From contig NZ_CP113061.1 in assembly GCF_026625745.1 (NCBI RefSeq), forward strand, positions 744,001-808,000: a stretch of 64,000 nt of DNA, read 5' to 3'. The notes under the pieces were generated by a model. It saw nothing but the letters and a program-made list of their open reading frames with translations, did no database searches and was not told the DNA's origin. The translations under genes and the position numbers were made by a program. Origin of the DNA: Asticcacaulis sp. SL142. GTDB taxonomy: Bacteria; Pseudomonadota; Alphaproteobacteria; Caulobacterales; Caulobacteraceae. Of the stretch, positions 21,057 through 26,742 are shown piece after piece (the first letter of the stretch is position 1; every line of letters starts with the position of its first letter).

Positions 21057-24000
21057 TTAGATGTCTTCGTAATATAAAACGCCAGCCATCGATTTCAAGG
21101 CCCCGCGCAGATGACCATCTAGTCTATAGCGATCTGGTAATTTAATTTCGACTTCCCGGTCAGAGCCCAGCTCTGTCAAAAGGCTGATTTCCCCTCCCGA
21201 TGGCGTCTTAGACTTATCCAAAAACTCTTTGAGGGTCACAATATCCAATCCTCGTGACGAGACATGTAACCGCAGTCCGATATCATCCATTTTGAGCGTG
21301 TCAGCCATGAGCGCGGCCTCATCTCCGAACATGCGCATTTCGCCTTCACGGCCGCCCTTACAGCGAACCTTCACAACTATTGATTTCCCAGGGTCGAGCA
21401 CTTCGCGGCAACGGCGCAAGGCTTCAGGCTGAAACATGACCTCATATTCCCCAGTCGGATCAGACAAGGTTACAAAGGCAAATTTTTCACCCGATTGCGC
21501 CGAGGCACGCTCCTGGCGTCGGCGCACAACCCCCGCCATGCGAAAGGCTTCCTGTCCTTCCGATGCTAGCCCCACAGCCTCAGCATAAAGCGTGACGCTC
21601 CGACGTTTGAAAACGTCCAGCATATCGCCCAAAGGATGCCCAGACAGATAAAACCCAACCGCCGCCAATTCATCATCCAGACTGTCCGGACCGGAATTAC
21701 TCGCAACTTTTGGCAAACGTGGACGCGCCGCCTCTGTGGCACCAAACAAGGTCACCTGAGAAGAAGCCCGTTCCGCCGCCACACTTTGGGCATAAGCCAT
21801 CAAAATATCTGCAGCCTTTACGATTTGGGTGCGGTTAGGATGGATTGAATCAAAAGCGCCCGCTTTCGCGAGATTTTCAATTGCGCGTTTGTTGACGGCT
21901 TTCGGATCGATACGTTCAAGAAAATCGAACAAGTCTTTAAATTTGCCACCTTCTTCACGGACCTGAACCACGGTCTGCATAGCTTCAAAGCCAACATTTC
22001 GGATGGCTCCCAACGCGTACAACACCTCGCCATTTTCAACATCGAAATCCGCCATGGATCGATTAATATCCGGCGGGCAAATCTTCACGCCGAAACGGCG
22101 AGCATCCTGATAAAACACGGCCAGCTTATCGGTGTTGGCGATATCAAGGCTAAGCGTTGCCGCAAAAAACTCGACCGGATGGTTGGCCTTTAGATAGCCG
22201 GTTTGATACGAAATAAAGGCATAGGCGGCCGCGTGCGATTTGTTAAAACCGTAGCCCGCGAACTTATTCACAAGTTCAAAAATTGAGTCCGACCGCCTTG
22301 GGTCAACGCCTTTTTCACTCGCACCGGAAATAAACCTTGCCTTTTGCAAGTCCATTTCTTCTTTTTTCTTCTTACCCATAGCCCGACGCAGAAGGTCGGC
22401 TTCGCCCAGACTGTAACCTGACAGGATTTGAGCGATCTGCATCACCTGTTCCTGATAGATGATAACCCCGTAAGTTTCTTTCAGTACCGGTTCAAGACTG
22501 GGGTGCAGCATGTCGATTTCAGCACGACCGAACTTACGATCAACATAGGTATCGATATTGTCCATTGGTCCTGGACGATAGAGCGATATCAAGGCCGTAA
22601 TTTCTTCAATCGAACCGCAGCGCATCTTGCGCAGGGTGTCACGCATACCCTGACTTTCAAGCTGGAACACGCCGATAGACTGACCTGAAGCCAAAAGTTC
22701 ATAGGTCGGACCATCATCCAATGGCAGAGTCGAGAAATTAATCTCCACGCCCCGTTTACGCAAATATTTCATCGCACGATCAAGTACAGTCAGGGTTTTC
22801 AGCCCCAGAAAGTCAAACTTTACAAGACCAGCACTTTCCACCCATTTCATATTGAATTGGGTCGCCGGAATATCTGAACGCGGATCACGGTAAAGCGGCA
22901 CTAATTCCGTTAACGGGCGATCGCCAATAACGATACCGGCCGCGTGGGTCGATGCGTTACGGTATAATCCCTCAAGTCTTAGGGCTGTATCCAACAGCTT
23001 TCTGACCGGTTCTTCATCCTTGGCGGCTTGCCGTAGCCGAGGTTCAACATCAAGCGCCTGTGCCAGAGTCACCGGATTAGCAGGATTAGCGGGGATCATC
23101 TTAGCGAGACGGTCAACCTGCCCTAATGGCAACTGCATGACCCTCCCGACGTCGCGCAAAACAGCGCGTGCCTGGAGCGTACCAAAAGTAATGATCTGTG
23201 CGACGCGATCACGCCCGTACTTATTCTGAACATAGGTGATGACTTCTTCGCGCCGCTCCTGACAAAAATCGATATCGAAATCGGGCATGGAGACGCGTTC
23301 AGGATTAAGGAACCGCTCAAAAAGCAATCCAAACCGCAGAGGATCAAGATCGGTAATGGTCAGGGCCCAAGCCACAAGCGAACCAGCCCCCGACCCCCGG
23401 CCCGGCCCGACCGGCACACCATGAGATTTCCCCCACTTGATAAAGTCCGAAACGATCAGAAAATAACCCGGAAACCCCATATTTTGGATCACGCCAATTT
23501 CGCGTTCTAAACGATCCCAGTAATCCTGCTCAGGAAATGCAGGCTTCACCTCGGTCAATCTCTGCTTAAGCCCTTCCCGTGCCTGAAATGCCAGTTCTTC
23601 AGCCTCGTTACGGCCATCACCTGTGTCAAATCTTGGCAGAATCGGATCACGTTTAGCCACCAGAAATGCGCATCTCTTGGCAATCTCAAGCGTGTTGTCA
23701 CAAGCTTCTGGCAGATCTTTAAATACCTCACGCATTTCACTTGCGGGGCGCAACCAATGATCTTTAGTTACCTTACGCCTGTCAGATACCCCCATGAACG
23801 TGCTATCAGAGATGCACAATAAGGCTTCGTGAGCCTTGTAAAGATCTGCGCTACCAAAATAGGCATCATTAGTCGCCACCAACGGAATATCATGGCCATA
23901 AGCGTATTCAACAAGCCCAGCCTCAGCCATGCCGCGCTCAACACCGCCCATACCATAACCAGTATCATGCCGCTGAAGCTCAATATAAAATCGGTCACCG

Positions 24001-24500
24001 AAAATTTCATGCATAGCTTTAAGAGCGACGCATGCTTCATCGGGTTTATTTTGCTTGAATAGTGGATCGACCGGGCCATCAGGCCCGCCCGATAAAAGTA
24101 TCAACCCTTGGTTATAGGCCGCAATTTGATCCCACGTAACATGAGGTTCTTCGATGCCATCTGACTCGACATAGGCAACCGAAGATAAATGACACAGATT
24201 GAGATAACCCCGCTCATCTTGAGCCAGCAGAACAACCGTAGGAATACGCGCCCACTTCTCGGTCAAACCGCCGCCAATACCTTTGACAGGTAGGGCACAA
24301 CCAATAATTGGCTGCACTCCGACGTCCTTACAGGTTTGGGAAAATTCAAGCGCACCGTAGAGATTACAGCGATCGGCAATCGCAATCGCTGGCATTGAAA
24401 GATTTTGCGCCAGCTTGCCCATATCATAGGCCTTTATGGCCCCTTCAAGCAGAGAGTAGGCTGAACGAACCCTCAGATGAATAAATCCGGTCTCGCTCAT
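21057..24500 (-). CDS. dnaE: DNA polymerase III alpha subunit
   Basis: 1147 residues, the normal DnaE1 length. The N-terminal PHP domain starts [18 protein letters not shown]. The catalytic acidic residues are Asp407 and Asp409 in PDFDIDF, followed by CQERREEVI. The nearby [14 protein letters not shown] and [12 protein letters not shown] segments are also family-typical. A helix-hairpin-helix and OB-fold region occupy the last third. This is the replicative enzyme, not the mutagenic DnaE2, which lies in imuAB operons. A GGAG lies 7 bases before the ATG. It starts 43 bases after the small SidA-like ORF, so the two may share a transcript. Confidence 0.97.
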
Positions 24501-24543
24501 ATTCGTCTCCGCCAGAGGTTTGCTTAAGGTGAGATTACCCGAT

Positions 24544-24633
24544 TCACGCTACCAGCATAGACAATTGGCAAACAACCCACACAAAGCCAGCGACCGATGC
24601 AAAGGACAGCAAATTATGTAATGTCGAAACCAT
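24544..24633 (-). CDS. sidA: SidA-like 29-residue membrane protein, putative SOS-induced division inhibitor
   Basis: The ATG at 24633 opens a 29-codon frame ending TGA at 24544; an in-frame TAA lies just upstream, so this is the only start. CGGAG stands 7 bases before the ATG. The product begins [16 protein letters not shown] and continues with a hydrophobic stretch containing FVWVV, enough for one membrane segment. C. crescentus SidA is a 29-residue SOS-induced inner-membrane inhibitor of FtsW/FtsN-dependent division. Length, topology, two near-consensus LexA boxes upstream and the place beside dnaE all fit that protein. I could not align to it, so the identity is inference. The overlapping 60-codon frame has no ribosome binding site. 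Confidence 0.6.
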
Positions 24634-24667
24634 TTTCGCACTCCGTTAAATTCATGCTTTGTTCTAT

Positions 24668-24715
24668 ATTCCCCATTTGTTCCAAACGCAAATAAATTAT
24701 GCACATAACAGGAAC
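24668..24715 (-). promoter_or_regulatory. Two candidate LexA (SOS) boxes upstream of the sidA-like ORF and dnaE
   Basis: Alphaproteobacterial LexA binds GTTC-N7-GTTC. Here ATTC-N7-GTTC is at 24668-24682 (plus reading) and GTTC-N7-GTGC at 24701-24715 (minus reading); each matches 7 of 8 bases. They lie 35-82 bases upstream of the small ORF. A minus-strand TTGTTC, 17 bases, TATTTG could be the promoter overlapped by the second box. The surrounding gap is AT-rich. Confidence 0.45.
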
Positions 24716-24749
24716 AAAAATAACAATGCATTGATTTTAAGAGATTAAA

Positions 24750-25454
24750 TTAAACGGAACCCGTGGACAATTCCGTGAGTTTTCCGTTCTGAATGGTCAC
24801 AACCCGATCCATATGTCTGGCGAGTTCCAGATTATGGGTCGCAATCAGTGCCGCGACCTGCTGATGACGAACCGTTTGCTTCAGCGCCTCAAAGACCTGT
24901 TTCGAGGTATCCGGATCGAGGTTACCCGTGGGCTCATCGGCCAATAACAATCTGGGACTGTTGACCAAAGCCCGCGCAATCGCCACCCGCTGCTGCTCAC
25001 CGCCAGAGAGTTGTGCGGGTTGATGGTTCAGGCGCTCGCCCAAGCCTACCTGCTCAAGCAAAGCCTTGGCGCGCGCCTCAGCCTCACGCACAGACCGGCC
25101 CAGAACTCTCTGAGGCAGTGCCACATTGCCCAGAGCGGTAAACTCAGGCAAGAGATGGTGAAACTGGTACACAAAGCCGATTTTGGTCAGTCGTGCCCGC
25201 GTGCGCAGCTTATCATTGGCGCGAGTAAGATCTTCACCATCAATAATTAATTGCGCTTCTTCGGAGGTTTCCAGCAAGCCAACGCAATGCAATAGCGAAG
25301 ACTTCCCTGAACCGGACGGCCCAACAAGACCAACCACTTCACCCGCATAGAGATCAAGATCGACATCTTTGAGCACTTCAAGTTGCGCGCCTTCGGCAAC
25401 ATTATAAGTGCGGTTCAGGCCACGCAACGACATGACAACATTTTTATTACTCAT
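24750..25454 (-). CDS. lolD: Lipoprotein-releasing ABC transporter ATPase
   Basis: 234 residues with a complete ABC ATPase: Walker [11 protein letters not shown], signature [15 protein letters not shown] and Walker [13 protein letters not shown]. With the LolC/E permease it extracts lipoproteins from the inner membrane and passes them to LolA. It overlaps the permease gene by 8 bases. MacB-type ATPases are similar, but the partner decides for LolD. Confidence 0.94.
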
Positions 25455-26742
25455 AACGTAGCGCCTCTACGGGCTCCAAACGGGCGGCCCGCATCGCTGG
25501 CGGCAAGGTCGACAAACATGCTGCCAACAAAGACCAGAACACCACAAACGCCACTTCGGCAGGCTCAATCTTGGCCGGAATATAGGACAGGTAATAGACG
25601 TCCGGGTTGAAGACTTTAGTTTGAGTCACGAACTCAACAAACTGCTGTATCGGACGAATAAACATACAGAAAACCACACCTAGCATAACCCCCGCTATGG
25701 TTCCGCCTGCGCCCAAAGTAGCCCCCGACAAGAAGAATATTTTCATAATCGAAGACCTGTCCGCGCCAAAGGTGCGCAGTATCGCAATGTCTTTGCCCTT
25801 ATTCTTTACCAGCATGACAAGGCCGGAAATAATGTTCATGGCCGCAATCGTGACGATCAGGCTTAGGATCAAGCGCATGACGTTGCGCTCGACCTGAAGC
25901 GCGCCCCATAGTGAGGCATTGCGTTCCGTCCAGTCCTGAACGATCCCGCCCTGACCCGCGGCGTTTACGATCTGGGGGCGGATGGACTGGATCTGATATG
26001 GGTCAGTGACTTTGAGTTCAAGCGCGTCCCACTCCCCTTCTCTGTCGAAGAAAAGCTGGGCCTGTTCGATCGGCATATACACAAAGGACGCATCAAGCTC
26101 ACTGACACCTACTTTGAAAACACCCGCGACCGTATAGGTTTTACGGCGTGGAATGGCGCCAAACGCTGTGGATGTCCCCGGCGTCAAAAGGGAAAGATCA
26201 TCGCCTGGGCCCACGCCCATATCGCGCGCCATGCCGTCACCGATCAGGATATTGTCACCGCCATAGTCGCCCACACCGAAATCCTTGATGGAGCCTTCGG
26301 TGATGTTTTCGACGACAATGGGTGTTTCTTTAAGGGTTTTGGCATCGACGCCGCGGATATAGGCCAGACCAGCCACGCCCTGAACATTCTGCGCCATGCC
26401 CGGAGACTGCACGAATGGCGAGACCTGCGTCACACCCGGCACGGCCTCAAGACGCTTGACCATGTCATCACGATGACCAAAATCGTTGATCGCCATGCCA
26501 CCGACATAGGCGTGGCCGTTGAACGCCAGAAGCCGCGACATCATTTCATCGCGAAATCCATTCATAACTGCCATGACGATAATCAGAACCGCCACCGACA
26601 GCATGACGCCAACAAAGCTAATGATCGAAATCAGCGCCACCCCGCCGTCTTTGCGTTTAGCCCGCAGATAGCGAAACGCCAGATCAAGCTCCCACAGGGA
26701 AAAACCCAGGGTTTTCTTTGGCTTTGGTGGCACATCTGACAT
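25447..26742 (-). CDS. lolC: Lipoprotein-releasing system permease, LolC/LolE family
   Basis: 431 residues. One membrane segment near residue 50 (ISIISFVGVMLSVAVLIIV) is followed by a large periplasmic domain and three C-terminal segments, the standard LolC/E topology. The N-terminal FRYLRAKRKDGG is family-typical. Only one permease gene accompanies lolD, so the complex is probably a homodimer, as in organisms with a single LolF-type protein. The exact name among LolC, LolE and LolF is therefore open. Confidence 0.9.
   Translation of the reverse strand: MSDVPPKPKKTLGFSLWELDLAFRYLRAKRKDGGVALISIISFVGVMLSVAVLIIVMAVMNGFRDEMMSRLLAFNGHAYVGGMAINDFGHRDDMVKRLEAVPGVTQVSPFVQSPGMAQNVQGVAGLAYIRGVDAKTLKETPIVVENITEGSIKDFGVGDYGGDNILIGDGMARDMGVGPGDDLSLLTPGTSTAFGAIPRRKTYTVAGVFKVGVSELDASFVYMPIEQAQLFFDREGEWDALELKVTDPYQIQSIRPQIVNAAGQGGIVQDWTERNASLWGALQVERNVMRLILSLIVTIAAMNIISGLVMLVKNKGKDIAILRTFGADRSSIMKIFFLSGATLGAGGTIAGVMLGVVFCMFIRPIQQFVEFVTQTKVFNPDVYYLSYIPAKIEPAEVAFVVFWSLLAACLSTLPPAMRAARLEPVEALRYE

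Follow-up and report, generated by a model that had tools for sequence, protein, structure and literature searches.

SidA of Caulobacter crescentus is a 29-residue, SOS-induced inner-membrane inhibitor of cell division that binds FtsW and FtsN, with suppressor mutations in ftsW and ftsI (PMC4211646). Filamentation of a C. crescentus lexA mutant is eased by deletion of sidA, according to a study whose main text does not contain the word dnaE (PMC12700426). Here we analyse a stretch of 64,000 nucleotides from Asticcacaulis sp. SL142 (the window, meaning this whole stretch), in which a 29-codon frame lies directly ahead of dnaE. We conclude, with a probability of about 0.9, that this frame is the Asticcacaulis orthologue of sidA and encodes an SOS division inhibitor acting in the manner set out in the Discussion. 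The window gene is a real SidA below the curated threshold and ordinary in kind; it is the wider pattern, more than this gene, that deserves attention, and the reach of SidA-like genes is its unexpected part. For most Alphaproteobacteria we know of no identified SOS division inhibitor.

Identification of sidA in the window

An earlier note on this DNA had described a frame of 29 codons running from ATG to TGA, with CGGAG placed 7 bases ahead of the start, an in-frame stop upstream and a single hydrophobic segment in the peptide. All of these elements are present on the minus strand, the ATG at 24633, the TGA at 24544 and the upstream stop being a TAA with four codons between it and the ATG.

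24544..24633, minus strand: sidA, 29-residue single-helix membrane peptide (frame, family conservation, NF033228 match)
24641..24645, minus strand: CGGAG, ribosome-binding-site-like, 7 bases 5' of the ATG (sequence)
21057..24500, minus strand: dnaE, DNA polymerase III alpha, starting 43 nucleotides (nt) past the sidA stop and possibly co-transcribed with sidA

A terminator scan of the 43-nt gap between sidA and dnaE returned no terminator-like site.

That the frame encodes a homologue of SidA, as the note had proposed, is supported by a curated model, by a continuous family alignment and by synteny. NF033228, the NCBIfam SidA equivalog (div_inhib_SidA), matched the window protein with an expectation value (E) of 5.4e-6 and 26.2 bits, and a Caulobacter member scored 72.4 bits. 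Among 199 genomes of the family, the Caulobacteraceae, the model matched 176 at E ≤0.1, with 119 above its cut-off; it also matched all 20 members of alignment A2 at E ≤1 and four of 14 named controls (Caulobacter vibrioides among them), one of these above the cut-off. Pfam gave no family for any of the 6 peptides searched. The properties that the note had given for C. crescentus SidA, namely its 29 residues, SOS induction, inner-membrane location and inhibition of division, are confirmed in PMC4211646.

A search with a single SidA sequence found matches at E ≤10 in 88 of 99 family genomes, covering 20 of 22 genera, and a profile search rescued three of the 11 unmatched genomes (G038, G019 and G012; the match in G016 was chance-like). 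With a Caulobacter query, 73 of 75 genomes of the genus Caulobacter were matched at E ≤1, and a scan of named records gave 76 loci from 103 pattern matches in Caulobacter, Phenylobacterium, Brevundimonas, Asticcacaulis and unclassified relatives. A single residue separates the window peptide from that of Asticcacaulis machinosus and from that of A. endophyticus.

For synteny of the gap upstream of dnaE, a comparison the earlier note had suggested, we collected 127 family loci through SidA matches, repeat copies included (90 distinct genes), so that the presence of dnaE is the independent part of the result. dnaE follows sidA in 116 of the 127, the window included, and its motif is absent in 11 (L008, L016, L017, L040, L143, L144, L153 and L165-L168). 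Frame and start are likewise kept in relatives: under a picking rule that favours ATG and 29 codons, 113 of the 116 dnaE loci give a frame of 28-30 codons (29 in 92, 30 in 16 and 28 in 5), 111 of them with ATG. At L037, L041 and L049 dnaE is present and the rule gave no frame, though the SidA search matched there. The commonest core among the 90 distinct genes is A-R-(E/D)-x-L-A-x-x-S-V-x-G-F-V-W-M-x-C, and F17 and V18 are invariant in all 90 with varying third codon bases, which argues for selection at the protein level.

For C. crescentus itself we take CC1926 and CCNA_02003 to be the same gene, and the gene numbers then place dnaE beside sidA, where the note had put it. sidA is CCNA_02004 (PMC10769358), dnaE is CC1926 (PMC1839093) and CCNA_02005 is a nucleoside hydrolase (PMC3667746). 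The gene order in genome G096 agrees, running from dnaE through sidA to a divergent nucleoside hydrolase (PF01156, E 4.7e-79) and a lolD-like ATP-binding cassette (ABC) ATPase. At all but one of 160 residues the GcrA of G096 is identical to the GcrA chain of 7ye1, and we take this chain to be that of C. crescentus.

Two side observations concern the family. At L238, L240 and L243 (G031, G017 and G016) dnaE is preceded within 350 nt by neither a LexA box (≤1 mismatch) nor a short hydrophobic frame, and these are apparent losses of sidA. A further SidA-like stretch may be present at G022:C3:315102-315185, where NF033228 scores 28.5 bits within an open frame of 132 residues.

LexA boxes and putative promoter of sidA

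Two 7-of-8 matches to GTTC-N7-GTTC had been counted upstream of the frame in the earlier note; such matches do exist, but they number three, two of them forming a tandem pair with a spacing of 18 base pairs (bp).

24650..24664, plus strand: LexA box 1, ATTCATGCTTTGTTC (sense reading GAACAAAGCATGAAT), 7 of 8 core bases, in tandem with box 2
24668..24682, plus strand: LexA box 2, ATTCCCCATTTGTTC (sense reading GAACAAATGGGGAAT), 7 of 8 core bases
24701..24715, minus strand: third LexA-like box, GTTCCTGTTATGTGC, 7 of 8 core bases
24663..24668, minus strand: TATAGA, putative -10-like element between and partly overlapping the tandem boxes (sequence)
24686..24691, minus strand: TTGCGT, putative weak -35-like element 17 bases ahead of TATAGA (sequence)

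Across the whole window, 7-of-8 matches show no excess (41 against 45.0 expected), so a bare match count proves nothing, and plain counting was dropped in favour of a matrix made from the genome's own boxes. Exact GTTC-N7-GTTC occurs at 78 places genome-wide and a reversed-pattern control at 80, and most of the exact places are therefore due to chance. For the matrix we used 15 exact boxes found where recognisable genes of the host genome start, mostly repair genes; the choice of boxes was our own and biased to AT-rich spacers, only perfect cores were taken and the window sites were excluded. According to NCBIfam and Pfam, these genes are lexA (two boxes), recA, ruvC, dinB, a second Y-family polymerase, rmuC, a YifB-type ATPase, a RarA-type ATPase, radA, two radical-SAM proteins, a FAN1-type protein, an AlkB-type oxygenase and mraZ. 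In a motif scan with this matrix, of the kind the earlier note had proposed, the three sidA sites rank 3, 4 and 6 among 127,972 window positions, so that three of the window's six top LexA-like sites fall within 66 bp before sidA. When 250-bp gaps were simulated 1000 times, 50 contained one site as strong as the third of these sidA sites, 2 contained two and none contained three.

The boxes are conserved in relatives. A box with at most one core mismatch lies within 120 nt in 97 of 97 distinct upstreams and is exact in 65, compared with 0-27 and 0-6, respectively, for eight permuted cores in the same upstreams. A loosely defined tandem pair with a spacing of 15-18 bp occurs in 93 of the 97, and a TTG(A/C)(C/A) element shortly ahead of GAAC in 74, a number counted without a control. 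The third box keeps its first GTTC in the aligned members of the genus, and its second half is altered except in the closest members. Since TATAGA sits between the tandem boxes, LexA would cover the -10 region; the boxes are present in the window, and the promoter itself is deduced from this layout.

In the host genome the predicted mraZ start is also preceded, at a distance of about 163 nt, by an exact LexA box, GTTCTTAATTTGTTC (L080, C1:1602972-1602986); as mraZ regulates the division and cell-wall cluster, this box is possibly a second SOS link to division.

We next weigh the reading of the window frame as sidA. Three C. crescentus ftsW alleles, A31K, F145L and A246T, suppress SidA (PMC4211646), and the corresponding FtsW residues are A, F and A in G096 and G139, while the FtsW of the host genome keeps F145 and A246. 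Several observations count against the reading: position 31 of FtsW is M in the host genome and F in a near relative, not A; the window protein reaches 26.2 bits where the curated cut-off of NF033228 is 35, with only residues 9-29 of 29 aligned; the model matched 15 of 25 listed genomes of the same genus and placed none above its cut-off; many of the 88 family matches are individually weak (E up to about 1); every one of the three window boxes lacks one core base; and a strict promoter consensus scan of the sidA upstream stretch found no sigma-70-type site, which is why the promoter has to be read from the layout. We read the cut-off as narrow, because the window gene forms a continuum in sequence, place and operator with members above it. 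By NCBI's own rule the window protein would go unnamed as SidA, which fits the earlier remark that gene finders usually miss this gene. The window sidA fills an annotation gap, as a checkpoint peptide under NCBI's own SidA cut-off.

A dnaE-anchored survey beyond the Caulobacteraceae

A SidA profile run over the whole order at E 0.1 matched 74 of 299 genomes and was abandoned as a means of searching further: the window's family accounts for 61 of these genomes, and the 13 matches outside the family were chance-like (E >0.001), so that dnaE was needed as an anchor. The survey covered 156 dnaE loci, 128 from 85 families outside the order (28 and 100) and 28 within it; families, genomes and loci are given by f, G and L numbers. 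The outside subset of 28 loci came from a search with matches in 189 genomes, of which three belong to the order, and was taken mainly from the top of the list, which may favour nearer relatives. The 28 within-order loci comprised five of the window's family (f1, picked for missed SidA), 6 of f2, 7 of f3, 5 of f4 and 5 of f5.

Families f3, f4 and f5 carry short hydrophobic frames behind exact LexA boxes and ahead of dnaE. Within 450 nt, GAAC-N7-GAAC in the sense orientation was found at 17 of the 128 outside-order loci, or 11 of the 85 families (shuffles: mean 0.61, maximum 4), and at 11 of the 28 within-order loci (shuffles: mean 0.16, maximum 1); on the opposite strand it was found at 7 of 128 and 1 of 28, respectively. 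Eight permuted cores over the 156 loci gave 0 or 1 in the same orientation and 0 to 4 in the other. Extending the search to 680 nt before dnaE, we found an exact LexA box at 29 of 156 loci and the succession of box, hydrophobic frame and dnaE at 28 of them, representing 15 families of which 12 lie outside the order, compared with 1 of 156 in an antisense control. The frames counted were hydrophobic, 20-50 codons long and started 10-170 nt behind the box (13-72 nt for preferred starts). Boxed loci outside the order belong to f12 (3), f7, f8, f95 and f96 (2 each), and f18, f34, f45, f55, f64, f91 and f98; those within it are 3 of 7 in f3 (one without a frame), 5 of 5 in f4 and 3 of 5 in f5. No exact box was found in the 680 nt at the 6 f2 loci, the five f1 loci or 110 of the 128 loci outside the order, and the whole arrangement is lacking at 128 of the 156. 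Absence of LexA was considered as the reason and ruled out: among 80 genomes drawn from the 156, with every one of the 29 that carry a box in the sample, 79 gave a lexA match and 76 of these passed the cut-off, so that loss of lexA does not explain the loci without boxes. G581 (10 percent contamination), the sole checked genome without a match, yet has a box.

For seven dnaE records from plasmids (Paroceanicella, Ruegeria, Cereibacter, three Azospirillum and Pseudorhodobacter), the 680 nt examined contain neither a box nor a short hydrophobic frame; these plasmid-borne genes may be accessory copies. At L244 an exact LexA box about 130-145 nt ahead of dnaE comes with no recognised short hydrophobic frame, and there dnaE itself may be the LexA target. 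In at least five genomes (G177, G181, G421, G504 and G417) lexA lies about 23-27 kb from dnaE.

Examples of the peptides are the following.

f7: MITDFVKDFLALSSVVGVLWAVTIWSPVLGNALA
f12: MLDWVEDIAGLASVTAMGWVAINWLPLAEAFIAG
f18: MIVKDLIALISLISFGYFVLMIGSFL
f64: MDWVKDAAGLAALVGLWGAFAAWAEIIGSVVGS
f95: MSEWVKDTAALFVLGAVMWSGFALTAAAQAAG
f98: MREWIGDLVALGMMAGSIWLVVLWGAVFGIVSV
f4: MKEIIKELAALSALASFTAMIGTWSVLLGG

In many of them K/R/E/Q and D/E, in this order, make up a charged pair ahead of A/G-L and the helix, often with a tryptophan, and their alignment has no invariant column and a mean column identity of 24 percent. Codon changes within families, synonymous against other, are 8/0 in f95, 9/1 in f12, 13/7 in f7 and 8/9 in f4, which shows coding selection in two of the four pairs (f95 and f12) and is less clear for f7 and f4.

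The 28 loci gave 26 peptides for tests of common descent. As whole-peptide shuffles flatter the result, we relied on segment-preserving shuffles and on leave-one-family-out profiles. With the Caulobacteraceae profile, segment shuffles reached the real score in 0-2 of 200 cases for f7, f12, f18, f55, one f3 and four of the five f4 peptides, and in 18-170 of 200 for the remaining ones. The leave-one-family-out profile was built on a core set chosen after the shuffle result, with one f12 peptide trimmed to the 34 residues at its C-terminal end, and was compared with 600 helix-like decoys drawn from the host genome only. In this test, 12 of 15 families, nine of them outside the order, have at least one peptide beaten by ≤3 of 600 decoys (f12, f18, f3, f4, f45, f5, f64, f7, f8, f95, f96 and f98); other peptides of f3, f4, f5, f8 and f96 did worse, being beaten by 7-205 decoys. 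Families f34, f55 and f91 fail, with 28, 104 and 59 of the 600 decoys scoring higher. Likeness beyond hydrophobicity is thus supported in both tests for f7, f12, f18, f4 and one f3 peptide, with the wider profile only, and not for every peptide, for f45, f64, f95, f98, f5, f8 and f96, in the shuffle test only for f55, and in neither for f34 and f91.

These data have to be set against the alternative that the frames before dnaE outside the Caulobacteraceae are convergent, different SOS micropeptides having arisen in the same gap. NF033228 matches 3 of the 29 rows of alignment A5, just as many as are Caulobacteraceae (the output leaves the matched rows unnamed), and when peptides were tried singly it matched two Caulobacteraceae A5 peptides and none of four from outside the family, for which reason we call the peptides SidA-like and not SidA. 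Convergence is further favoured by f98, f64, f95, f8, f96, f34, f91, f45, f5 and one f3, which cannot be told from shuffles or decoys with the Caulobacteraceae profile alone, and by the three families that fail the leave-one-family-out test. It does not account well for the same place, operator orientation and similar distance, for the shared charged residue followed by A/G-L, or for the 12 of 15 families with a peptide above all but 0-3 of 600 decoys, and we regard it as unlikely, though worth keeping in mind. Judging by the sequences, common descent of most SidA-like peptides is the somewhat more probable outcome. As we are moderately inclined to believe, SidA would be no speciality of Caulobacter but the branch known best from an ancient alphaproteobacterial group of membrane micropeptides under SOS control, encoded ahead of dnaE. 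This group would be an ancestral DNA-damage division brake of the class, forming one LexA unit with dnaE. It would be present in four families within the order and, of the families sampled outside it, in up to 12, nine of them with sequence support. We attribute its having been overlooked to the size of the peptides, mostly 25-38 residues, and to divergence beyond ordinary sequence search. Our searches of an open-access library, which leaves out key subscription papers, gave no title or abstract opening on SidA relatives outside the Caulobacteraceae or on a LexA-controlled peptide before dnaE.

Flanking features

24750..25454, minus strand: lolD-type ABC ATPase, context, upstream of sidA
25447..26742, minus strand: lolC-type permease, context, upstream of lolD (MacB_PCD and FtsX matches)
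24754..24776, minus strand: terminator-like hairpin at the lolD end (two sites in the scan, one per strand, for the same hairpin; 0.3 expected)
24541..24545, strand not assigned: GANTC, CcrM-type methylation site overlapping the sidA stop codon (sequence)

The end of lolD and the start of sidA are 116 nt apart, and the hairpin would insulate sidA from upstream transcription. GANTC stands at the sidA stop in 48 of the 90 distinct genes of the family, compared with 172 of 123,514 nearby positions; by record name it is present at 18 of 21 Caulobacter, 3 of 3 Asticcacaulis and 1 of 24 Phenylobacterium loci. The site may mark a dnaE promoter read by GcrA, whose gene is present in the host genome and whose targets in C. 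crescentus include CCNA_02005 (PMC3667746).

The first transmembrane helix of lolC (KDGGVALISIISFVGVMLSVAVLI, 26637, minus strand) scored best of 600 decoys with the SidA-family profile, and with the Caulobacteraceae profile the median score is 3.0 for LolC-type helices (23 distinct ones), compared with -1.7 for decoys. Given this likeness and the position of lolC-lolD directly upstream, sidA may descend from a duplicated 5' end of lolC.

Discussion

The explanation we favour is that LexA, bound to tandem boxes spanning the -10 region, would hold the sidA promoter off until DNA damage leads to RecA-stimulated cleavage of LexA, frees the promoter and allows the 29-residue peptide to be made. 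SidA would insert in the inner membrane by its single helix and keep the FtsW/FtsI/FtsN septal cell-wall complex inactive, so that cells filament and do not divide over damaged DNA. Transcription probably continues into dnaE, supplying more replicative polymerase in the same response and placing dnaE under shared SOS control, as the earlier note had surmised. SOS induction, membrane location, binding of FtsW and FtsN and division arrest are taken from C. crescentus and presumably hold in Asticcacaulis; outside Caulobacter the function of SidA-like peptides is predicted by analogy, and they may act on FtsW.

Of the two other explanations for the window peptide, an SOS-induced peptide of the TisB/DinQ sort that depolarises the membrane and is not a divisome-specific inhibitor appears improbable. 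About 30 residues, one hydrophobic helix and LexA control do reproduce the outline of DinQ (PMC3567139), but specific residues are conserved, not bulk hydrophobicity, and C. crescentus SidA has ftsW and ftsI suppressors (PMC4211646). For the peptides of distant relatives this explanation may still apply. Still harder to credit is a regulatory leader peptide or chance frame without a division target, with LexA controlling dnaE itself, which would suit the position directly ahead of dnaE at 116 of 127 loci and the GANTC at the stop codon in 48 of 90 distinct genes but neither the conservation of residues with free third codon positions, nor the likeness to a tested inhibitor family, nor the easing of lexA-mutant filamentation by sidA removal in C. 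crescentus (PMC12700426).

The dnaE-anchored survey yields candidate genes in a number of families, each with its start codon and operator, in which it can be tested whether a single LexA operon couples a division halt to the supply of replicative polymerase. As a natural series of helices that possibly bind FtsW, the peptides could also serve to map the minimal needs of a divisome inhibitor.

Comparison with known systems

The resemblance to DinQ and TisB of Escherichia coli is one of outline: TisB is an SOS-controlled single-helix membrane peptide, and both act on the membrane itself and have antisense RNAs. YneA, SosA and ChiZ of Gram-positive bacteria are larger and have different operators, the resemblance being one of role, by description. 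DinQ, too, is an SOS-controlled single-helix membrane peptide (PMC3567139), and YneA, SosA and ChiZ are DNA-damage-induced membrane division inhibitors and predicted FtsW binders, in a paper that itself gives its models of ChiZ, SosA and SidA as being without high confidence (PMC13396833). DidA of C. crescentus, compared by description only, is likewise a small post-damage inhibitor of the FtsW/I/N complex but is SOS-independent, DriD-activated and FtsN-interacting (PMC4211646).

C. crescentus SidA differs from the window peptide in that the latter has N-terminal STLHN where the usual pattern is (A)RE/RD, scores below the curated cut-off and has one mismatch in each of its LexA boxes. In the window lolD adjoins sidA upstream, whereas in the Caulobacter genome G096 the divergent nucleoside hydrolase intervenes before the lolD-like gene. 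The two share a length of 29 residues, one hydrophobic helix, LexA boxes in front and dnaE behind.
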